Of a stretch of 20,121 nucleotides of DNA, positions 157-18,512 are shown in pieces; the stretch's first letter is position 1, and every line of letters starts with the position of its first letter. The notes below the pieces were generated by a model. It saw nothing but the letters and a program-made list of their open reading frames with translations. It was not told where the DNA came from and did not search any database. The DNA is from a virus: the IMG/VR virus record IMGVR_UViG_3300033552_000593, positions 1 to 20,121 of that record; one strand, 5' to 3'. The position numbers were made by a program, and so were the translations under genes.

Positions 157-275
157 TTATTTAAATAAAGATTTTTCTAATTCATGCAAAAATAAGTGTT
201 TTGATCAAATCTGAAAAAGTTTTAGCAAATTTTAAGACTTTAATAAAAAGTATAAAATTTATAGTTTTTTAAACA

Positions 276-297
276 TTGCGGGGAACATGCGGGGATT
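276..297. repeat. Copy 1 of tandem TGYGGGGA repeat near integrase
   Basis: Two octamers TGCGGGGA (277-284 and 288-295) sit 11 bp apart, one helical turn. The 22-bp block recurs at 483-504 with only two C-to-T differences. G-runs like this stand out in very AT-rich DNA. Position beside the integrase suggests arm-type integrase or accessory-protein sites, or part of an att region. The opposite end of the element is outside the window, so a core site cannot be defined. Confidence 0.6.
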
Positions 298-306
298 TTG
301 TCTAAT

Positions 307-351
307 AAAAAAACGGTAAAAGCTTATTTTATAGCTGTTTACCGTTTTTTT
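307..351. terminator. Strong bidirectional intrinsic terminator
   Basis: Arms 307-320 (AAAAAAACGGTAAA) and 338-351 (TTTACCGTTTTTTT) pair over 14 bp. The stem extends by AGCT/AGCT (321-324 with 333-336) past a one-base bulge, leaving an 8-base loop. An A-run precedes and a T-run follows, so it can act in both directions. It lies between the two TGYGGGGA blocks and would insulate the integrase from transcription entering from the left. No gene is visible just upstream that it would obviously terminate. Confidence 0.75.
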
Positions 352-482
352 AAAGTGACCTTGACTGTACTTAAATTAATTACTTACATTTTATTAAATT
401 TAATTAAAATCAAAAAATAGCTAATGTTTACAAGTAGTTTGACATTATTTCAAGTTAACCTAATTAAATATCATTAAACTAA

Positions 483-504
483 TTGTGGGGAACATGTGGG
501 GATT
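483..504. repeat. Copy 2 of tandem TGYGGGGA repeat near integrase
   Basis: Two octamers TGTGGGGA (484-491 and 495-502), again 11 bp apart, match the block at 276-297 except for T in place of C at both variable positions. It ends 29 bases before the integrase ATG at 534. It could therefore be a site through which integrase or another factor both assembles the recombination complex and represses int. Confidence 0.6.
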
Positions 505-533
505 GTTTATATTTGCATTCTCAACTAGAAATC

Positions 534-1730
534 ATGGCAACGGTTAATTTCTTAATACAAACAAATACAAATCCTTCTAAGATATATATCCGATTTAAAG
601 ATGGGAGAAATTTTGACATTCAAACAACGACCAATTTTATCATAAATCCTTCTGACTGGAGTGTTCCCAAACAAAGGCCAAAAAATTTAAAGAACGAAAG
701 TTTTAAAAACCTAGATTCTGACTTACAAGAATTGAAAACAAATTTACTAAATAGTTTCAATAAATCTGATGAACCTATAAATTTAGTCTGGCTTAAAAAT
801 TTCATCAATCCAAAAGCTGAAATATTAATACCGAAAGATCTTGTCTCATACTTTGATTTTTACATCAAGGAACGCGGTAATGAAATAAATCATCGAACGA
901 CTTTAAAAATAAAGGTAGTTCAAAATAAAGTTGCTAAAATTCAAAAAATTAAAGGGAAGACCTTTTTAATAAAAGATATAAATTCACAATTCAAAAACGA
1001 ATTTGAGAAGTGGAACCTGGAGCAAGGCTATTCTGAAAACACTATTTTATCAAACTTGAAAGAGGTAAAAGCAATGTGTATTCATGCCAGAAAAAAAGGA
1101 CTTGCAGTAAGTTACGAAATGGATGAAATAAAAGTCACCCAGAAAAAAGCAATCAGCATTTATCTAAACGAAAAAGATTTGTTTAAAATCGAAAATGCAA
1201 ATCTTAAAATAAAGGATTTGCAAGATGCCAGGGATTGGCTATTGATTTCGTGCTACACTGCGCAGCGAGTTTCAGATTTCATGCGATTTACTACAGATAT
1301 GATTAGAATTGAAAATGGAGTTAGCCTAATCGAATTTATACAAGTTAAAACAGGTAAGGTTATGACTTTGCCATTACATAAAAAAGTAATTGAAATTTTA
1401 AATAAAAGAGGATTTCAATTCCCGAAACGACAAACAGATCCTAAATACAATATTCATATTAAAAATATTTGTAAAAAAGCTAAAATAAATGAGGTTGTCT
1501 ATGGTGGAAAAATGGATCCAGCAACCAATAGAAAGGTTTTGAAAAAATATCCAAAACATGAGTTGGTGACTTCGCACATTGGCCGTCGATCCTTTGCAAC
1601 TAACTTTTATGGAAAAATACCCACGGCACTATTAATGGGTGCAACTGGGCACAGTACCGAGGCGACTTTTTTAATCTATATAGGAAAAAGCAGCACTGAT
1701 AAAGCTATTGAATTAAGTAAATATTTTTAG
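534..1730 (+). CDS. int: Tyrosine site-specific recombinase (phage-type integrase)
   Basis: This enzyme would cut and rejoin att sites to integrate and excise the element through a 3'-phosphotyrosine intermediate. The 398-aa product has a Bacteroidota N-terminal arm-binding segment (about 1-95), a SAM-like core-binding domain (about 100-200) and a C-terminal catalytic domain. All expected catalytic residues are visible: R245 in TAQRVSD, K272 in VKTGK, H348 and R351 in HIGRRSFAT, H373 in TGHST and nucleophile Y382 in LIYIG. An in-frame TTG at 483 lies in the repeat and would add 17 cysteine-rich residues. ATG 534 gives the usual MATVNFLIQT-type start and is preferred. The stop overlaps the convergent XRE gene by four bases. 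Confidence 0.96.
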   Translation: MATVNFLIQTNTNPSKIYIRFKDGRNFDIQTTTNFIINPSDWSVPKQRPKNLKNESFKNLDSDLQELKTNLLNSFNKSDEPINLVWLKNFINPKAEILIPKDLVSYFDFYIKERGNEINHRTTLKIKVVQNKVAKIQKIKGKTFLIKDINSQFKNEFEKWNLEQGYSENTILSNLKEVKAMCIHARKKGLAVSYEMDEIKVTQKKAISIYLNEKDLFKIENANLKIKDLQDARDWLLISCYTAQRVSDFMRFTTDMIRIENGVSLIEFIQVKTGKVMTLPLHKKVIEILNKRGFQFPKRQTDPKYNIHIKNICKKAKINEVVYGGKMDPATNRKVLKKYPKHELVTSHIGRRSFATNFYGKIPTALLMGATGHSTEATFLIYIGKSSTDKAIELSKYF

Positions 1731-1981
1731 ACCATTTCTATAGATCCCTCGGTTCTAAAAACATTTTTTTCAATGCCTATGATCCAATTTGCATTGACTT
1801 TGTATTTTTTGCAAATCATTTCAATGTGAGTAACAGTGAAACTGGCTTTTCCGTGTCGTATTTTGGAAATGGTTTGACGGATAACGCCAACACCCTCGCA
1901 GAATTCGTTTATAGTGTTTATTCTTTTCTCAAATTTCAACAAGTCAATTAATCGCAATATACGTTCGTCTGGAGTTTTCAT
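1727..1981 (-). CDS. Small XRE-family HTH regulator
   Basis: An 84-aa protein with an XRE/Cro-CI type helix-turn-helix over about residues 22-65 (INEFCEGVGVIRQTISKIRHGKASF..., then HIEMICKKYKVNANWIIG, the usual Bacteroidota ending of this fold). It is expected to bind DNA as a dimer. It is the last gene of a leftward cluster, 12 bases after the lipoprotein gene, and converges on the integrase with a four-base overlap. It could therefore be made in the lysogen together with the repressor. Its target is unknown; the int region or the lysogeny promoter are natural guesses. There is no C-terminal protease domain, so it is not itself an SOS-cleavable repressor. Confidence 0.8.
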   Translation of the reverse strand: MKTPDERILRLIDLLKFEKRINTINEFCEGVGVIRQTISKIRHGKASFTVTHIEMICKKYKVNANWIIGIEKNVFRTEGSIEMV

Positions 1982-1993
1982 TTTTTGAAATTA

Positions 1994-2446
1994 TTAGATA
2001 CCTAAATATTCATGTAATTTATTTTGGTCTATTTTTGAAACGATAATAAATTGATCATTTAAAATAGAATCTTTTGAATATTGATTATTTTCTTTTATTA
2101 TGTAAGTAACATTATTCCTTGTATTGGCGCCATATTTATTTTCTGCATCATAATGTATGGAAACCTGCCATTTTTTGGATATTGAATCATTAATTTGTTT
2201 CATATCATAAGCGTCATCTAAATCTTTATTGTAATATTTATTGTTTTTATCAATTTCAAAAACATCAGTTAATAATGAATCGTATTTTATTGTTGATGGC
2301 GTTTTAGAGCCTACTTTAACATCCATTTTGCAAAATTCAAGAATCAAATCTTCTTTAGATTTTATTTTTGTTTCATTTTTTAAAATTTTATCGCATGAAA
2401 TCAACGTTGAACAAAATATTAATAATAATAAAATATTTTTTTTCAT
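1994..2446 (-). CDS. Hypothetical lipoprotein in the lysogeny operon
   Basis: A 150-aa protein with a clear type II signal peptide: MKKN, hydrophobic core at 5-16 and lipobox LISC with Cys18 as the lipidated residue. The mature part is charged and Lys/Asn/Asp-rich without a recognisable domain. It would sit on a periplasmic or outer-membrane face. It lies 13 bases after the CI-like repressor gene and 12 before the XRE gene, same strand, so it is probably expressed in the lysogen. Phage lipoproteins placed this way often act in superinfection exclusion or alter the host envelope. That role is only inferred here; the sequence itself shows just the lipoprotein signal. Confidence 0.8.
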   Translation of the reverse strand: MKKNILLLLIFCSTLISCDKILKNETKIKSKEDLILEFCKMDVKVGSKTPSTIKYDSLLTDVFEIDKNNKYYNKDLDDAYDMKQINDSISKKWQVSIHYDAENKYGANTRNNVTYIIKENNQYSKDSILNDQFIIVSKIDQNKLHEYLGI

Positions 2447-2459
2447 AATTTTTTATTTG

Positions 2460-3143
2460 TTAAAATAAATGGCTTGAAGCCTGAACTCTGAAAATAGCCG
2501 AAATGCTGCTTTTCTTTATTTGTTGTGGTGGGAACTCCTCTTTTTTACTATCCGTTGGCTTACTTATTAAAGTATAATATTCATCGGTATCCCCTTTAGT
2601 AATTACTTTAATTATTCTAAAATTATCAGTAGTAACAATAGCATAAATTTCACCGAAAGGAAAAAACTCCTGCCAGCTATTTATTTTTATCAATCCAATT
2701 GCGTCTCCATGACAAATAACTTTTGCCATTGATTGGCCAGATGCTCGTACTACATAATCACATCCTTTAAAAAATGGATGACTGATATATGAATCAGGAG
2801 TAACTTGGTTATTGTTTTCAATCGCCAAAAAACTGGCAGTAAAATCAATATCGTAATAGGGAACTCCTTTATAATAATCTGCAGGAGTTTCAGAAACAGT
2901 ATTATTTACTTCTTTTTTATTTATATAATTAGAAACTTCCATTTCTCCTATTCCATGCAATAACCATTCTTTTGACACACTAAAATTTTCGCAAATTACG
3001 TTTATGTGCGATATTTTTATACTGTCTCTCTTTATTGCATTTCTTATCGCACCTTCTGTAAGTCCCAGTATTATTGAAATTTCTTTTAGTGTATAACCTT
3101 TTTCACGCCTGTACAACTCCAATCTTTCGCCAGTTTTATCCAT
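2460..3143 (-). CDS. CI-like phage repressor (XRE HTH plus S24 peptidase domain)
   Basis: A 227-aa LexA/CI-type repressor expected to hold the lytic promoter shut. Residues 1-65 form the HTH (GYTLKEISIILGLTEGAIRNAIKR). Residues about 90-227 are the S24 peptidase-like domain, opening with GVPYYDIDFTASF as in many Bacteroidota phage repressors. The catalytic dyad is visible: Ser138 in ASGQSMA and Lys179 in FRIIKV. I see no clear Ala-Gly cleavage site in the linker (66-95), so RecA-stimulated self-cleavage is plausible but unproven; induction may instead use an antirepressor. It is divergent from the early genes, with ATTACG operator sites just upstream of its start, and heads the leftward operon. 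Confidence 0.93.
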   Translation of the reverse strand: MDKTGERLELYRREKGYTLKEISIILGLTEGAIRNAIKRDSIKISHINVICENFSVSKEWLLHGIGEMEVSNYINKKEVNNTVSETPADYYKGVPYYDIDFTASFLAIENNNQVTPDSYISHPFFKGCDYVVRASGQSMAKVICHGDAIGLIKINSWQEFFPFGEIYAIVTTDNFRIIKVITKGDTDEYYTLISKPTDSKKEEFPPQQIKKSSISAIFRVQASSHLF

Positions 3144-3180
3144 ATGAAATTATTTATAATGAATACAAATAAGTAATAAA

Positions 3181-3216
3181 TCGTAAAATAATTACGATTA
3201 TGTATTTTTAATTACG
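3181..3216. promoter_or_regulatory. Candidate repressor operator (ATTACG half-sites)
   Basis: TCGTAA (3181-3186) and TTACGA (3192-3197) form a perfect dyad with a 5-bp spacer. The octamer TAATTACG at 3189-3196 repeats at 3209-3216, exactly 20 bp (two helical turns) away. The cluster lies between the repressor start (3143) and the rightward -7 box (3227). A repressor bound here would block the rightward promoter and could autoregulate its own gene. Confidence 0.55.
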
Positions 3217-3226
3217 CTTTTGTACT

Positions 3227-3234
3227 TATATTTG
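3227..3234 (+). promoter_or_regulatory. Rightward early promoter, -7 box TATATTTG
   Basis: TATATTTG matches the Bacteroidota -7 consensus TAnnTTTG exactly. A -33 TTG-type box at the right spacing is weak (AT-rich, about 3203-3208). Transcription would start near 3241 and run to the Cro-like gene at 3531 through a leader of about 290 bases. The ATTACG operators sit immediately upstream. Confidence 0.55.
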
Positions 3235-3255
3235 CTCTATACAAATGCCCTATGG

Positions 3256-3263
3256 CAAATGTA
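3256..3263 (-). promoter_or_regulatory. Possible leftward (repressor) promoter -7 box
   Basis: CAAATGTA on the plus strand is TACATTTG on the minus strand, an exact TAnnTTTG. Transcription would begin near 3250, run across the rightward promoter and operators, and reach the repressor start at 3143, giving face-to-face promoters. The -33 partner is poorly spaced, so this is tentative. Confidence 0.35.
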
Positions 3264-3387
3264 ACGAAGTTCATTGACATATCGAATACAAAAAAACAAG
3301 AAACAAACTACTGAAAAAGTAGAAAGAATAATTAAAGCCTGTGGGTTTAAAGATTCCCTATTTTAAAAATGGCTGAAAAATAAAAAC

Positions 3388-3483
3388 GCCGTTGGATTTG
3401 AAAAATGAATCTGCTTTCGATGCAACAACGGCACAAAGAACATATAATGTTTCATAACCGGACATCTAATGTACGATGAAACA
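3388..3483 (+). other. Structured 5' leader of early operon (two hairpins)
   Basis: Inside the gene-free stretch 3264-3530, GCCGTTG (3388-3394) pairs with CAACGGC (3426-3432), and TGTTTCAT (3448-3455) pairs with ATGAAACA (3476-3483). The second hairpin encloses a further ACAT/ATGT stem (3462-3465 with 3469-3472). No T-run follows, so these are not ordinary terminators. They could be an RNA element in the early transcript, for example an antitermination or stability signal, or a DNA operator. Apart from these structures I see no gene here. Confidence 0.4.
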
Positions 3484-3530
3484 ACACATAAAACGCTTAG
3501 AATCAGTATAAATAGCAAAACAGCAACAAA

Positions 3531-3752
3531 ATGGAAGGTAAATCACTAAGTGAGGAAATAAAACATATTATCAGAAATGATATTCCTCTTAGACAAAAAA
3601 TAGCGATACAGCTTGGTATCACTCAAAAAACAGTTTACGAATACGCTCACAAAAAAAAGAGAGAAAAGGCACTCACTAGATATCCAATAGTTATCGAAAT
3701 CCTTAAAAAACATACAGGAATGCCGGATACTAAAATTCTAATCAAGAACTAA
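3531..3752 (+). CDS. Cro-like small HTH protein, first early gene
   Basis: A 73-aa basic protein with a predicted HTH at about residues 19-45 (LRQKIAIQLGITQKTVYEYAHKKK), followed by a lysine-rich helix. It is the first gene of the rightward transcript, divergent from the CI-like repressor, the place where Cro or CII-type regulators sit. I infer a role in turning down the repressor or early promoter; homology to Cro is not certain. It starts at ATG 3531 with an A-rich upstream (AGCAACAAA), and its stop touches the ATG of the next gene, so the two are probably co-translated. Confidence 0.65.
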   Translation: MEGKSLSEEIKHIIRNDIPLRQKIAIQLGITQKTVYEYAHKKKREKALTRYPIVIEILKKHTGMPDTKILIKN

Positions 3753-4010
3753 ATGGAGCTTATACAATTTATACAGGTGAATCCTAAAGATTTTCAAAAC
3801 GAGATAATCACTGGGATTTTAGAAATTATGGCAAAGCCAAAAGAAGAAGAGGTTTTACTTACTCAAAGCGAAGTTTGTGCTTTTTACAGAGTGTCAAAAC
3901 CTACAATTATTAAATGGCAAAAGGAAGGTAAAATAAAAGCCTACGCTATCGACAACGAACGCCGATACAAAAAAAGTGAGTTATTGGATAGCTTGGTTTT
4001 AATGAAATAA
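3753..4010 (+). CDS. Excisionase/MerR-like HTH DNA-binding protein
   Basis: An 85-aa protein whose C-terminal half (residues about 34-80) is a winged-helix of the excisionase/MerR-like helix-turn-helix group: LLTQSEVCAFYRVSKPTIIKWQ followed by EGKIKAYAIDNERRYKKSEL, with the typical final basic wing. Such proteins bend DNA at attachment sites as directionality factors for tyrosine integrases. Here it lies in the lytic operon, as expected for Xis. The first 33 residues are less typical. It begins directly after the previous stop and is followed at once by a terminator. Excisionase is the best guess; another early regulator is possible. Confidence 0.7.
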   Translation: MELIQFIQVNPKDFQNEIITGILEIMAKPKEEEVLLTQSEVCAFYRVSKPTIIKWQKEGKIKAYAIDNERRYKKSELLDSLVLMK

Positions 4011-4011
4011 A

Positions 4012-4042
4012 AAAAGCGATTCCCGAGCAAGGAACCGCTTTT
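4012..4042 (+). terminator. Intrinsic terminator after the first two early genes
   Basis: AAAAGCGATTCC (4012-4023) pairs with GGAACCGCTTTT (4031-4042) over 12 bp with one A-C mismatch around a 7-base loop, ending in four T. It begins one base after the stop of the excisionase-like gene. It would limit read-through into the recombination and replication genes unless an antitermination mechanism acts. No TAnnTTTG box is visible between it and 4089. Confidence 0.65.
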
Positions 4043-4088
4043 ACAATCAAATTTTAATAAGGGAGTCGAATTCCACAAATCAAACGTT
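4043..4088 (+). promoter_or_regulatory. Recurrent AATCAAATTTTAA leader with GTCGAA element
   Basis: ACAATCAAATTTTAATAA (4043-4060) is followed by GGGAGTCGAATTCCAC and an A-rich stretch up to ATG 4089. The same two-part arrangement (AAATCAAATATAAC, then GGAAGTCGAAAACC) precedes the PcfK-like gene at 15294. The shared blocks suggest a duplicated translation-initiation or regulatory leader rather than chance AT-richness. Confidence 0.45.
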
Positions 4089-4358
4089 ATGGCAAATTTA
4101 GCAAAAAAAATTAAAGAGATTGACGTTCAGATAAAATCAAAAACTACTGAACTCAGAGAAGCAGAAATTTCATTCTACTACAATATGTTCTCATGCGAAG
4201 AAAAACGCAATGAAGATATCAAAGATATCAATGCTGAATTAAGGGATTTGCTTTCCTTGAAATACGCTACAATCGAAAGCTTGCAAAGAGAATTTGAATT
4301 TGTAAAAGCTGCAATATCAAATCAACAGAGATTCTTAACGCTTCAAGTAAACGCATAA
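4089..4358 (+). CDS. Hypothetical coiled-coil protein
   Basis: An 89-aa acidic/basic alternating protein that looks almost wholly alpha-helical (IKEIDVQIKSKTTELREAEI..., DINAELRDLLSLKYATIESLQREFEF). It resembles small coiled-coil phage early proteins. There is no signal peptide, membrane helix or cysteine motif beyond a single Cys. It overlaps the next gene by one base (TAATG). Family and function are not recognised. Position before the recombination genes suggests an early accessory role only. Confidence 0.7.
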   Translation: MANLAKKIKEIDVQIKSKTTELREAEISFYYNMFSCEEKRNEDIKDINAELRDLLSLKYATIESLQREFEFVKAAISNQQRFLTLQVNA

Positions 4359-4573
4359 TGGCAATAGAGAAAAATAAAATTTACAAAACGTCTTCTGGAA
4401 AATTGTTACAAGTAGTTGATCTAAAAGAAAGTGGTTTTCATCACTTGAAAGAAATTGACAAAGAAGGCAATGCAATTCAAGAAATTAGAAACAGATCCGG
4501 ACACGTTGTTTACAGAACCTATTTTGTTTACTCAGAAGAAACGATTCATTCATTTAAAAAGCAAAAATCATGA
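4358..4573 (+). CDS. Hypothetical small early protein
   Basis: A 71-aa protein, probably a small beta-rich fold (KIYKTSSGKLLQVVDLKESGFHHLKEIDKEGN...SGHVVYRTYFVYSEETI). It is translationally coupled on both sides: TAATG overlap with the preceding gene and ATGA overlap with the next. No family is recognised. An alternative frame at 4455-4646 overlaps it but has poorer context and is not used here. Confidence 0.65.
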   Translation: MAIEKNKIYKTSSGKLLQVVDLKESGFHHLKEIDKEGNAIQEIRNRSGHVVYRTYFVYSEETIHSFKKQKS

Positions 4574-4734
4574 AAATAGAAATCATAGTCCAAAATGGCA
4601 AATGGCTAACAAACGGAAAAACTTATCCAGAGTTAGACTGGATTGAAAAAGTATTTTTTGACAATTTCTTTTTTGCAATGAAATTGAAAATGGAATCAGA
4701 TCAGATCAATTCAAGTCTAAAAATAGCATCATGA
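4570..4734 (+). CDS. Hypothetical 54-aa protein
   Basis: ATG 4570 overlaps the preceding TGA (ATGA), and the frame runs 54 codons to TGA 4732-4734, where it overlaps the next ATG in the same way. The product begins MKIEIIVQNGKWLTNGKTYPELDW and is then rich in Phe and Met (KVFFDNFFFAMKLKM). The exact ATGA coupling on both sides is the main evidence that it is real. Function is unknown. Confidence 0.6.
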   Translation: MKIEIIVQNGKWLTNGKTYPELDWIEKVFFDNFFFAMKLKMESDQINSSLKIAS

Positions 4735-8164: not shown

Positions 8165-8905
8165 ATGGAACTTTTAACCATAGGAACCGGTTCAAAAGGT
8201 AACGCTTATATCCTCAGCAATGGGGATGAAGCTTTATTAATAGAATGCGGAGTAAACATCAAGGAAATCAAACAAGCTTTAGATTTTGATTTGTCAAAAG
8301 TAGTGGGATGCCTCGTAACCCATGAACATCAAGATCATTGTAAGTCAGTTAAGGATATTTCTAAACTTGGGATTCGTGTTTACTCCGGACTAAGAACTCT
8401 TTTAGCTATGGGTATAAATTGCAGTCATAAAGCGTTTATAGTCATTCCTAAACAGTCATTTTCTATTGGAAACTTCAAAGTAATGGCTTTCGATGTTAAA
8501 CACGATGCTGCAGAACCATTAGGTTTCTTAATAGAGCATCCAGATTGCGGAAAGGTGCTTTTCCTGACTGATACTTACTATTGTGAATATACTTTCAAAG
8601 GACTGAATAACATCATCATTGAAGCTAATTATTCAAAGGAAATTATCGACAGAAAATTTGGTTATGATTCGGGAAAGGAATTTTTGAGAAATAGGATTTT
8701 AAAATCGCATTTCTCGCTGGCCAATTGCAAGGATATGTTAAGCGCTAATGATCTCACGAAAGTAAACAACATTGTTCTCATTCATTTATCAGACAGCAAT
8801 TCAGATGAAATTCAGTTTCAAAAAGAAGTTGCTGAACTAACTGGTAAAAACGTAACCGTTGCTAATAACGGCATGAAAATTAATTTCGGTAAAACCCCTT
8901 TTTAA
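8165..8905 (+). CDS. MBL-fold (YycJ/WalJ-like) hydrolase, candidate nuclease
   Basis: A 246-aa metallo-beta-lactamase fold protein. The metal-binding motif THEHQDH gives H53, H55, D57 and H58. Further likely ligands are H113 (VKHDA), D136 (LTDT), H182 (KSHFSLAN, the GHLS-type motif) and H207 (LIHLSD). The start GTGSKGNAYILSNG and the EAN at 153-155 match the YycJ/WalJ branch. Phage members occur beside RecT. I infer it degrades DNA ends to make single strands for RecT, which is not proven by the sequence. It is tightly packed: two bases after recT and a one-base overlap with the next gene. Confidence 0.85.
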   Translation: MELLTIGTGSKGNAYILSNGDEALLIECGVNIKEIKQALDFDLSKVVGCLVTHEHQDHCKSVKDISKLGIRVYSGLRTLLAMGINCSHKAFIVIPKQSFSIGNFKVMAFDVKHDAAEPLGFLIEHPDCGKVLFLTDTYYCEYTFKGLNNIIIEANYSKEIIDRKFGYDSGKEFLRNRILKSHFSLANCKDMLSANDLTKVNNIVLIHLSDSNSDEIQFQKEVAELTGKNVTVANNGMKINFGKTPF

Positions 8906-15293: not shown

Positions 15294-15803
15294 ATGAAAG
15301 CATCAAACGAATTTAAAAAAACGATCAAAGCTCACCTTGAAAAAAGAGCAACTGAAGATGAACTCTTTGCTGTTACCTACAAAAAAGAAAACAAAAACCT
15401 AGACGAGTGCTGCAACTATGTTATGGAATGTGCTAAAAAGGGCGGTTGTGCCGGATACTCTGATGATGAGGTTTTTGGTTGGGCTGTTCATTATTACGAT
15501 GAAGATGATATTAAAGGCATCAAACCTATGAGCGGTAAAGTAGTTGTTAATCATTCAGTAGAACTTAATGAAGAAGATAAAAAATTGGCCAAAGAAAAAG
15601 CAACGGAACTGTTAATTCAGGAATTAAAATCAGAACAAAAGAAAACTTTTTCTGAAACTATTGAACTAACTGAAGAAGATTTACAAGATGCAAAAAAACA
15701 AGCAATGCAAAAAGTAGTTTCTGAGCAAAAAGAAAAAATGGTAACCAAGGCTGCCAAGAAGAAACCAACAACTGAGGTGGAACAAATTGACTTATTTGGG
15801 TAA
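15294..15803 (+). CDS. PcfK-like / AcrIIA9-family protein with C-terminal clamp motif
   Basis: A 169-aa protein. Residues 1-75 follow the PcfK-like family (FKKTIKAHLEKRATEDELFA, CCNYVMECAKKGG-CAGYSDDEVFGWAVHYYDED). From family knowledge, relatives include AcrIIA9, an inhibitor of type II Cas9. Residues 85-155 are a charged helical region with two similar segments (VELNEEDKKLAKEKA at 89-103 and IELTEEDLQDAKKQA at 123-137). The extreme C-terminus is EQIDLFG, a canonical beta-clamp binding motif (QLxLF type). A phage clamp gene lies two genes downstream. Two bases separate it from the PcfJ-like gene, the pairing typical of this family. Anti-CRISPR activity is an inference; the clamp tail suggests a DNA-replication link. 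Confidence 0.8.
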   Translation: MKASNEFKKTIKAHLEKRATEDELFAVTYKKENKNLDECCNYVMECAKKGGCAGYSDDEVFGWAVHYYDEDDIKGIKPMSGKVVVNHSVELNEEDKKLAKEKATELLIQELKSEQKKTFSETIELTEEDLQDAKKQAMQKVVSEQKEKMVTKAAKKKPTTEVEQIDLFG

Positions 15804-15805
15804 TT

Positions 15806-17140
15806 ATGAAGCCAAAAACGAAACTACAAGTGGAAGTTTGGGCTTTACACCAAAAACTTTCAGAACCTACAGAGCATGAGCCTTTCGTAATATTTAAACA
15901 CCAATTTTACTATACTACACATTACAAAAATTTGGTTTGCTTAGAATGTAATCATAGCTGGAAACCAACCCAAGCGTGGCATGAAGAATTGTTGGGCGCT
16001 GATTGTCCTTCATGTAATAAGAAACTTAAAAAAATCACAATCAATAATGGTGACTTCATACGAATAATTACATATTCTGTTGTTCAAGTTATTGGCAGAT
16101 TTCAAGTAGTCAGATATTTTTCATGTTGGAAAAGCATGTATAAAAATAAAAATCCTCGATATCATTTCCGATCATTATTTGAAGAATGGATGGACCATGA
16201 CAAAGGAAAAAAAGTTATCGTAGGTCGAAATACAACATATACTGGAGATGGATTTAGCTCTTCTGATTATGAAGTAAGATATGCTAATCCTAAATGGGGA
16301 CAAAGTGAATATGATCGCTTTGCATCAAATTTTAATTGCCCTGGAGCAGAATTTCTCCCAAGATTTAATAAGTATGGATTGACGAAATATAAGCATGATT
16401 GCGATTATAGAATTTTACTGGATAGAATTAAAGACTCCCCAAAAATTGAAACGCTTTTAAAAGCAAAACAAAAAGAGTTGCTTCATTTTTCATTATTTAA
16501 TGATAGTAGGCACAATGCTTTTTGGGATTCAATCAAAATTGTTATCAGAAACAAGTACAAGATAACTGATGTTGGAATATGGTATGACTATTTAGATTTA
16601 TTACGATACTTCAACAAAGATTTACACAATGCGGTCTATGTTTGTCCAAAGAATCTCCATAAAGAACACAATAATTTGATGAATAAAAAGCGTGAGATTT
16701 TGAGATTGGAAGAACAGGAAAGAAACCGACTTCAAACCATAAAACGCCAACAAAAACTTGAAAAGGCAATTGTACTATATGCCGAAAGAATGCAAAAGTT
16801 TTTTGACTTAGAATTCAAAAAAGGTAATATTTCAATAACTGTATTAAAAAGTATTGAAGAGTTCAAAGAAGAAGGCGACGAACTAAAGCACTGCGTGTAC
16901 ACCAACGAATATTATCTCAAGGAAAAATCAATAATTCTTTCAGCCCGAGTTGATGGTAGAAGAGCTGAAACCATTGAATTGAAACTTCCGGAGCTAAAAA
17001 TTGAACAGTCACGCGGATTCAAAAATCAACCAACCCAACATCATGAAAAAATAATAAAATTGGTCGAAAGTAATCTGGAGAAAATCAAAAAAATAGTTAT
17101 CAAAACAAGGCCAAGAGGCAAAGAAAAATCAGCAGCATAA
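15806..17140 (+). CDS. PcfJ-like protein with zinc ribbon
   Basis: A 444-aa protein. CxxC pairs C45/C48 (CLEC) and C67/C70 (CPSC) form a likely zinc ribbon. The C-terminal PcfJ-like domain (about 340-430) contains the conserved pattern LKHCVYTNEYY (360-370), then SARVDGRRAETIEL and IEQSRGFKNQP. PcfJ and PcfK take their names from the conjugative plasmid pCF10 and occur as a pair in mobile elements; their biochemical role is not settled. A coiled-coil-like basic stretch (293-325) may bind nucleic acid. It lies between the PcfK-like gene and the clamp gene and is probably co-transcribed with both. Confidence 0.78.
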   Translation: MKPKTKLQVEVWALHQKLSEPTEHEPFVIFKHQFYYTTHYKNLVCLECNHSWKPTQAWHEELLGADCPSCNKKLKKITINNGDFIRIITYSVVQVIGRFQVVRYFSCWKSMYKNKNPRYHFRSLFEEWMDHDKGKKVIVGRNTTYTGDGFSSSDYEVRYANPKWGQSEYDRFASNFNCPGAEFLPRFNKYGLTKYKHDCDYRILLDRIKDSPKIETLLKAKQKELLHFSLFNDSRHNAFWDSIKIVIRNKYKITDVGIWYDYLDLLRYFNKDLHNAVYVCPKNLHKEHNNLMNKKREILRLEEQERNRLQTIKRQQKLEKAIVLYAERMQKFFDLEFKKGNISITVLKSIEEFKEEGDELKHCVYTNEYYLKEKSIILSARVDGRRAETIELKLPELKIEQSRGFKNQPTQHHEKIIKLVESNLEKIKKIVIKTRPRGKEKSAA

Positions 17141-17142
17141 TA

Positions 17143-17160
17143 ACAATCAAATCAAATTTT
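17143..17160 (+). promoter_or_regulatory. Recurrent leader of the clamp gene
   Basis: ACAATCAAATCAAATTTT runs directly into ATG 17161, with the ATCAAAT unit doubled. It belongs to the ACAATCAAATTTT leader family seen before the Rad50-like and recT genes. Confidence 0.45.
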
Positions 17161-18276
17161 ATGAAAATTACAGTCGAAAGCCATTTACTGGCAAAAAATT
17201 TAAACGTGTTAAAAAAAGTAGTACCAAGTTCAAGCACCATTCCAGTTTTAGAATGCTTTTTGTTTACGGTAGCAGATGGCAAACTAACCATTACTGCCAG
17301 TGATTTAGAAACTACGCTTCAAATCAAAACAGAAGCCACATGCAGCGAAGAAAAAGGCAGTTTTGCTGTTGCAGCAGATCTATTAATGGAAATCGTAAAA
17401 TCACTATCTGATGATTCATTGGTGCTTAATTTCTCCGAAAAAGAATTGGAGATTCAAAGTATTTCAGGAAGTTACAATATGGCGGTTGATGATCCAAAAG
17501 CGTTTCCAGAAACTCCAGCCACACAAGAAGAAAACAACATTACTTTAGAAGCTCACATTCTCAATAAAGCTTTATTAAATACTTTATTCGCCACTGGAAC
17601 CGATGATTTGAGAGCAATGTTAACTGGAGTATGTTTTGATTTTAAGAAAGACTCTTTAGTTTTTGTCGCCACCGATGCTAACAAATTGGTGAAATTCACT
17701 CGAAATGATATAAAATCTGAAGAAGAGAAGCAACTGATCATGCCTAAAAAACCAATTATGGTCCTTACAACCGCGTTGGCTGGTAAGGATGAAGAAGTAA
17801 ATATAGGTTTCAACAATACTAACATTTCTTTCGAGCTTGAAAATACGATAATGATTTGTAGGCTGATAGATGCTAAATATCCAGCTTACGAAAATGTAAT
17901 TCCAAAAGAAAACCCAAACACACTTGAGATCAACAGATCTGAATTGTTGCGAAGCATCAAACGTATTTCAATTTTTGCAAGCAAAACAACACATCAATTG
18001 ATATTTGATAAAAAAGGTAATTCATTGACTATCCTTTCAGAAGACAAAGATTACAATAACAAAGCGGTTGAAACGCTTACAATTGTAGGAGATGGCAATG
18101 ACTTAAAAATTGGTTTTAATGCTAGGTTTTTGGCAGAAATGCTATCCAACTTAACATCTGATAAAATAAAAATTGAAATGTCAGCACCCAATAGAGCTGG
18201 AATTATTACTCCGGTCGATTCCAAAGATGAAAACGAAAGTATCTTGATGCTGGTGATGCCTGTAATGATCAATTAG
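17161..18276 (+). CDS. dnaN: DNA polymerase III beta subunit (sliding clamp)
   Basis: A 371-aa full-length DnaN, within the usual 365-375 range, with three clamp domains (about 1-120, 125-245, 250-371). Family marks include DLRAMLTGV (149-157), ATDANKLVKF (170-179), YPAYENVIP (240-248) and the C-terminal MLVMPVMIN (363-371). The last three line the pocket that binds QLxLF peptides, so peptide binding appears intact. It would load on DNA as a dimeric ring and tether polymerases and partners. Clamp genes are usually chromosomal; a second clamp on a phage implies a modified replisome. Two neighbouring products carry clamp-binding tails. It is Bacteroidota-type and probably host-derived long ago. 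Confidence 0.95.
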   Translation: MKITVESHLLAKNLNVLKKVVPSSSTIPVLECFLFTVADGKLTITASDLETTLQIKTEATCSEEKGSFAVAADLLMEIVKSLSDDSLVLNFSEKELEIQSISGSYNMAVDDPKAFPETPATQEENNITLEAHILNKALLNTLFATGTDDLRAMLTGVCFDFKKDSLVFVATDANKLVKFTRNDIKSEEEKQLIMPKKPIMVLTTALAGKDEEVNIGFNNTNISFELENTIMICRLIDAKYPAYENVIPKENPNTLEINRSELLRSIKRISIFASKTTHQLIFDKKGNSLTILSEDKDYNNKAVETLTIVGDGNDLKIGFNARFLAEMLSNLTSDKIKIEMSAPNRAGIITPVDSKDENESILMLVMPVMIN

Positions 18277-18278
18277 TA

Positions 18279-18512
18279 ATGATTTCTACTGTACTAGATT
18301 GTTATTTCTATAAAAGAATTGACAGCACTTTGATTGCAGTAACAACCACCGGAGAAGAAATACCGGTGGTTAAATTCAAGCAAAAATTCATCGATTTACT
18401 CATCGTCGACAAAGAGCCTTTAGCCTACATCAAGAAATACATTGAAATGTTTCCGGAACTCGTGGGAATTATAGAATTAAAAACACAAACAGAACAATTA
18501 AAACTTTTTTAG
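18279..18512 (+). CDS. 77-aa protein ending in a clamp-binding motif
   Basis: A small protein whose ATG lies two bases after the clamp stop, so the two are translationally linked. The body (STVLDCYFYKRIDSTLIAVTT..., VKFKQKFIDLLIVDKEPLAYIKKYIEMF) looks like a compact alpha/beta domain of unknown family. The last five residues are QLKLF (73-77), matching the beta-clamp binding motif QLxLF, at the free C-terminus as in many clamp partners. I infer that it docks on the adjacent clamp, perhaps to recruit a factor or to compete with host polymerase, but only the tail supports this. Confidence 0.75.
   Translation: MISTVLDCYFYKRIDSTLIAVTTTGEEIPVVKFKQKFIDLLIVDKEPLAYIKKYIEMFPELVGIIELKTQTEQLKLF

Follow-up and report, generated by a model that had tools for sequence, protein, structure and literature searches.

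The bacterial clamp-binding peptide has the consensus QL(S/D)LF and usually lies at the C-terminus of the protein that carries it (PMC9690074, PMC4549789). Insertion-sequence transposases are among the clamp-binding proteins (PMC4549789, PMC9690074), the Caulobacter toxin SocB binds the clamp via a clamp-binding motif (PMC9690074), and bacteriophage T4 has its own clamp, gp45, with the interacting phage proteins gp33 and gp55 (PMC9690074). Separately, AcrIIA9, a protein from a screen for Cas9 inhibition, carries a PcfK domain (PMC6739104). The window analyzed here, the whole 20,121-base stretch of IMG/VR virus record IMGVR_UViG_3300033552_000593, encodes a DnaN-type beta sliding clamp together with two proteins that end in peptides of the clamp-binding type: a PcfK-like protein ending VEQIDLFG and a small protein, p77, ending TEQLKLF. 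Clamp docking by peptide is already well known; PcfK and p77 are not described as clamp-docking proteins in the papers found. The explanation that we judge probable is that PcfK and p77 serve as accessory factors and use these C-terminal peptides to dock on any beta clamp.

The open reading frames (ORFs) and tails are as the original prediction gave them, and both tails fit the published consensus (PMC9690074, PMC4549789). As in the known QL(S/D)LF proteins, the peptide is C-terminal and lies in an unstructured tail, with Q at position 1, often S or D at position 3, and L-F at positions 4 and 5, and other mobile elements likewise reach the host clamp by such a peptide. Unlike the known cases, p77 and some PcfK proteins accompany a phage-encoded clamp. 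The nearest formal parallel is T4, with a phage clamp and two docking phage proteins, but gp45 is a trimer of another clamp family, gp33 and gp55 act in late transcription, and PcfK occurs without a phage clamp. No Pfam, PHROG or NCBIfam match relates PcfK or p77 to gp33 or gp55, although a distant relation could escape such searches. SocB resembles PcfK and p77 in being a non-polymerase protein that uses the clamp-binding motif; in contrast to SocB, no antitoxin pairing is seen for PcfK or p77, and PcfK resides on temperate and conjugative elements. The plasmid pCF10 shares with the window the PcfK and PcfJ families (PF14058/PF14284), their adjacent order and an EQIDLF tail, but it has no clamp gene and its PcfK has about 145 extra N-terminal residues ahead of the PcfK domain. 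Pfam finds nothing convincing in those residues (L112:37207-37983). The claim that no described system has this set of genes needs qualifying. T4 is a precedent for the layout; an open literature search, outside which most subscription papers lie, returned no paper tying PcfK, PcfJ or AcrIIA9 to the clamp.

The window PcfK scores 137.6 bits against the Pfam PcfK model (gathering score 27) and is encoded adjacent to pcfJ, which places it in the PcfK family. A viral scan with this protein as query gave 80 loci, from which 73 distinct homologues were scored in their last 12 residues. Q..LF is present there in 49 of the 73, versus 10 of the 1,074 other distinct genes that these loci contain, and LF in 66, versus 73 of the 1,074. 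Shuffled PcfK tails yielded a mean of only 0.15/73 with Q..LF and 2.4/73 with LF, and a Q..LF tail was found in none of 82 PcfJ proteins and none of 33 clamps. A chance motif is rejected on these counts, as is PcfJ itself as a clamp binder. The residue before LF is S or D in 54 of the 66 PcfK proteins that have LF, as the consensus asks. Aligning 65 PcfK proteins showed no variation at the tail Phe or at several residues of the body signature HYYDEDD, and a linker between them that is highly variable in length and sequence. In the AlphaFold model, the body is helical, with residues 5-69 followed by two longer helices, and the tail behind it is coil with a predicted local distance difference test score (pLDDT) of 54-59. 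A search for a known fold gave nothing meaningful by Foldseek, and a Protein Data Bank (PDB) sequence search was empty.

Several departures from the common form were seen. Two PcfK genes have broken ORFs, one with QISLF encoded past an in-frame stop (L040:4998-5460) and one with QPTLF encoded in a different frame (L099:3906-4450), and a third (L057) has the tail variant QASLSF. One PcfK branch (L069, L072, L086:4986-5390 and L084:658-1086) ends EPLDIPIF or EPLSIPLF, not QxxLF. These ends are near the hexapeptide form of the clamp motif, and they are also like SSB tails.

The PcfK tail extends well beyond the relatives of this phage. All 12 PcfK loci in Bacteroidota genomes, and one more on a Bacteroides plasmid, have an LF-type end (for example QTSLF, QIGLF, QLTLF or ALTLFDL). 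The founding member, PcfK of pCF10 from Enterococcus faecalis, ends EQIDLFECV, in which EQIDLF is identical to the window protein. In Bacillota phages (Streptococcus and Listeria phages in this set), PcfK ends GQLDLFGALV in Javan467, GQLDLFEELA in Javan345, EQLDLLDFL in Listeria B054 and KQMSIFDFLD in SM1, and the PcfK of an E. faecium plasmid ends EQLSLLDML. Because such tails occur in Bacteroidota and Bacillota phages, in plasmids and in Bacteroidota genomes, the tail is a trait of the PcfK family across two phyla.

The second family, p77, also keeps its tail. The homologue profile was built minus the tail columns so as to avoid circularity, and it recovered 20 distinct, complete homologues, the most divergent pairs of which share 30% identity. 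A clamp-type tail is present in all 20: Q[LF]xLF in 19, one of them with an additional N, and QIQLEL in the remaining one, a match to QLxLxL, a related form of the clamp motif. Synonymous variation is seen among the Leu codons of the motif (TTA, CTA, CTT), so it is the peptide, rather than the DNA, that is kept. In isolated Flavobacterium psychrophilum phages, the p77 relatives (Fpv5 gp42) end VQLNLF, and a truncated p77 (L015:6955-7300) has QITLF encoded past an in-frame stop. Tailed p77 is also found in clamp-bearing records without detectable PcfK (L006/L089), and p77 occurs in records of 23-63 kb without a clamp homologue (L100:5642-6001, L097-L099). In L100, a 119-amino-acid protein of unassigned family lies between PcfJ and p77, the place held by the clamp in the window. 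The original prediction had asked whether the tails are conserved even when the bodies diverge, and for both PcfK and p77 they are. Conservation through recent descent alone is weakened as an explanation by p77 bodies that are 30% identical and by the synonymous codon changes, and further by the varying PcfK linkers and the Bacillota homologues.

Other proteins encoded in these records also have clamp-like ends. Directly upstream of the phage clamp in L006, which has p77 and no detectable PcfK, positions 171-4638 encode an 897-amino-acid helicase/N6-N4 methyltransferase ending SLFDFMEAESA and a 209-amino-acid protein ending VQLDLFA, further families beside a clamp with clamp-like tails. No second homologue of the 209-amino-acid protein (tail QLDLFA) was found. 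In L103 (5707-6192), a 161-amino-acid protein encoded directly upstream of a gene that is large-terminase-like by position ends VVEQPLFGDDDED, again a clamp-like tail.

The window clamp matches all three DnaN Pfam domains and scores 257.6 bits against NCBIfam TIGR00663 (cut-off 137.65), and its closest solved relative is the beta clamp 8dt6 (E 6e-89). The claim that it retains the elements of the peptide-binding pocket is borne out by alignment to E. coli DnaN, at the positions taken to form that pocket. T172, L177, P242, V247, N320, M362 and P363 are kept, and the changes are G174 to A, H175 to N and R176 to K. The same pocket was compared with that of a second clamp, from a Bacteroidota metagenome-assembled genome and apparently chromosomal, since its contig, judged by eye, also encodes UvrA-like and DnaX-like proteins. 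The two clamps agree at 14 of 17 pocket positions, versus 46% identity elsewhere. With pockets so alike, a peptide that binds one clamp should bind the other. DnaN-type clamps are common in phages, occurring in 108 phage records. In 17 clamp-bearing records, no homologue of polymerase III alpha, Pol A or the clamp loader delta subunit was found, so that these clamps probably use the loader and polymerase of the host. One clamp branch, encoded directly before PcfK (L013:3824-4990, L014:3910-4998, L016:3908-4993), has a strongly altered pocket, for example with M362 changed to G or S; the PcfK beside these clamps nonetheless ends QLGLF, QVGLF or QVFLFE.

The original prediction went further and proposed a dedicated module in which the tailed proteins dock on a private clamp, perhaps excluding host partners. 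That part is not supported. A clamp profile that detected its target in 10 of 10 records or genomes known to hold a clamp found no clamp homologue anywhere in 47 records with PcfK or p77, bearing in mind that the virus records searched may be fragments. The PcfK tail without a clamp is seen in the complete phages Danklef_1, Freya_1 and BS-TP3 and in the plasmid pCF10, and the p77 tail without one in the complete phage Fpv5. Among the PcfK records tested, those that lack an adjacent clamp have none elsewhere. A private clamp is rejected as a requirement, since the tails are kept in the absence of a phage clamp and the two pockets are so similar; that likeness also leaves nothing to suggest exclusion of host partners. 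Where a clamp gene is present, it recurs beside the pair in the order PcfK-PcfJ-clamp (25 loci, some from overlapping fetches), clamp-PcfK-PcfJ (8) or clamp-gap-PcfK-PcfJ (3). This recurrent neighbourhood supports a functional link.

Taken as a reading of sequence, these results make it highly likely that PcfK and p77 bind the clamp physically. The QxxLF-type peptide at the end of the flexible tail would occupy the conserved hydrophobic pocket of the clamp in the manner of other clamp partners. Docking would not be restricted to the phage's own clamp, because most PcfK elements encode none. The phage described here would supply its own clamp, probably reliant on the host loader and polymerase. 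The purpose of recruitment can be proposed with somewhat better than even confidence. Docking would bring the PcfK body, probably together with PcfJ, and the p77 body to clamps on phage DNA that is newly replicated or nicked; there the docked proteins may aid its replication or recombination, or protect it.

Some observations weigh against this proposal. Gln is absent in 22 of 78 PcfK tails, and short motifs are degenerate. L075 has a complete PcfK ORF without the tail and is a real exception. The PcfK homologue counts are phylogenetically non-independent, as they fall into 15 clusters at 60% body identity; an LF- or IF-type tail is retained in 13 of these clusters, and the Q in 9. Finally, both the role assigned to PcfJ and its binding to PcfK rest on gene adjacency.

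That adjacency is nearly constant, with PcfK and PcfJ side by side in 92 of 94 loci. From it we infer that the two proteins form a complex, in which the likeliest division of labor would make PcfK the clamp adaptor and PcfJ the working partner. PcfJ has four invariant Cys residues near the N-terminus (C45, C48, C67 and C70), and its structural model has a pLDDT of 91. The C-terminal domain (about residues 330-435) has a conserved QSRGxxN and is GNAT-like in that model. The top Foldseek rows are GNAT proteins (probability near 1, E about 0.05), and the best VIA-align match to GNAT has Z 8.8 and a root-mean-square deviation of 3.3 over 106 residues. This moderate structural support for a resemblance to GNAT acyltransferases, without a known enzymatic role, is offered only as a lead. 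PcfK and PcfJ are widespread mobile-element genes, and no established function was found for either.

Among other explanations, the one that survives best is that the tails occupy the host clamp and block host replication and repair partners, giving PcfK and p77 a takeover or inhibitor function like that of SocB. The phage pocket is nearly identical to that of a host clamp, p77 is a small, stand-alone protein found also in clamp-less phages, and SocB provides a precedent (PMC9690074). However, PcfK is stable in temperate phages, conjugative plasmids and Bacteroidota genomes, where poisoning of the clamp would be costly, and it is nearly always paired with PcfJ. An inhibitor also has no need of a phage clamp of identical pocket type. 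We regard the explanation as unlikely overall; PcfK, which resides on temperate and conjugative elements, is the less likely of the two to inhibit the host clamp, and for p77 such inhibition is harder to dismiss.

Clamp-coupled transcription is less probable again. Here p77 or PcfK would be a late-gene coactivator joining RNA polymerase to the clamp, as gp33 and gp55 work with gp45, a T4 precedent (PMC9690074) with the same formal layout of a phage clamp and two small docking proteins. Against this, neither PcfK nor p77 has an above-cut-off match to sigma-like or coactivator families in Pfam, PHROG or NCBIfam, PcfK is also found on plasmids without phage late genes, and the clamp is of the bacterial DnaN type, not gp45. 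Least probable of all is a role of the tails other than clamp binding, for example as ligands of PcfJ, of a different phage protein or of a protease. In its favor, promiscuity is common among short motifs, the proteins of one PcfK branch end EPLDIPIF or EPLSIPLF, and the pairing with PcfJ is near-constant. Against it, an identical type of peptide is found in two unrelated families that are both linked to a clamp gene, the p77 tail occurs in L006/L089, where PcfK is not detectable, and in Fpv5, and Q followed by S or D before LF is the preference that known clamp peptides show.

The features of the locus are collected in the table. In gene order, PcfJ starts 3 bases past the PcfK stop codon and p77 starts two bases past the clamp stop codon. 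The description of the clamp as flanked by two tailed proteins therefore fits p77, the sole direct clamp neighbour among the tailed proteins, but not PcfK, which PcfJ separates from the clamp.

Features of the PcfK-PcfJ-clamp-p77 locus, in positions of the window
Feature	Position	Strand	Evidence
PcfK-like protein (PF14058), 169 aa	15294..15803	+	Pfam E 3.8e-40; helical body, linker, C-terminal clamp-type tail
PcfK tail peptide QIDLFG, core QIDLF, predicted beta-clamp-binding motif	15783..15800	+	Homologue conservation
PcfJ-like protein (PF14284), 444 aa, no clamp tail	15806..17140	+	Pfam E 6.8e-33
DnaN-type beta sliding clamp, 371 aa, pocket residues retained	17161..18276	+	Three Pfam domains, TIGR00663, PHROG 947
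p77, 77 aa, body and C-terminal clamp-type tail	18279..18512	+	PHROG 14426 E 1.6e-6
p77 tail peptide QLKLF, predicted beta-clamp-binding motif	18495..18509	+	19/20 distinct homologues end Q[LF]xLF

By family searches, the window also encodes an integrase, an S24-type repressor, an excisionase-like gene, SbcC-like, RecT and NinB proteins, a helicase, a DnaC-like loader and NinG. The integrase, repressor and excisionase-like gene, together with the recombination and replication genes, mark the window as early-region DNA of a temperate phage, and Bacteroidota, the source of its named relatives, point to a temperate Bacteroidota phage. Comparison of the window with sequenced phages at the DNA level gave no match. 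Elsewhere in the window (8165-8905) lies a gene for a protein of metallo-beta-lactamase fold, whose Pfam match to the anti-Pycsar protein Apyc1 is weak and falls below the cut-off (E 0.0014).

The PcfK tail may bear on AcrIIA9, whose mechanism is left blank in two reviews (PMC6538845, PMC10328345). AcrIIA9 belongs to the same Pfam family as the window PcfK, a comparison made at the family level, and RefSeq labels Bacillota PcfK members "Cas9 inhibitor AcrIIA9 family protein". NCBIfam assigns no family to the window PcfK or to the pCF10 PcfK, which RefSeq places in the AcrIIA9 family; the AcrIIA9 model is apparently missing from that library. It is possible, though doubtful, that the whole PcfK/AcrIIA9 family is a clamp-riding class in which PcfK and PcfJ, the latter with a zinc-ribbon-like N-terminus and a GNAT-like domain, would shield or modify the replicating DNA of the element, and in which the anti-Cas9 effect of AcrIIA9 would need docking. 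The family-wide clamp tail gives a testable handle on AcrIIA9. The clamp hypothesis predicts a binding partner and a defined mutant, in the Q and F of the tail, and would make it possible to decide if anti-Cas9 activity is clamp-dependent. With p77, a second small phage family carries the same predicted docking peptide.

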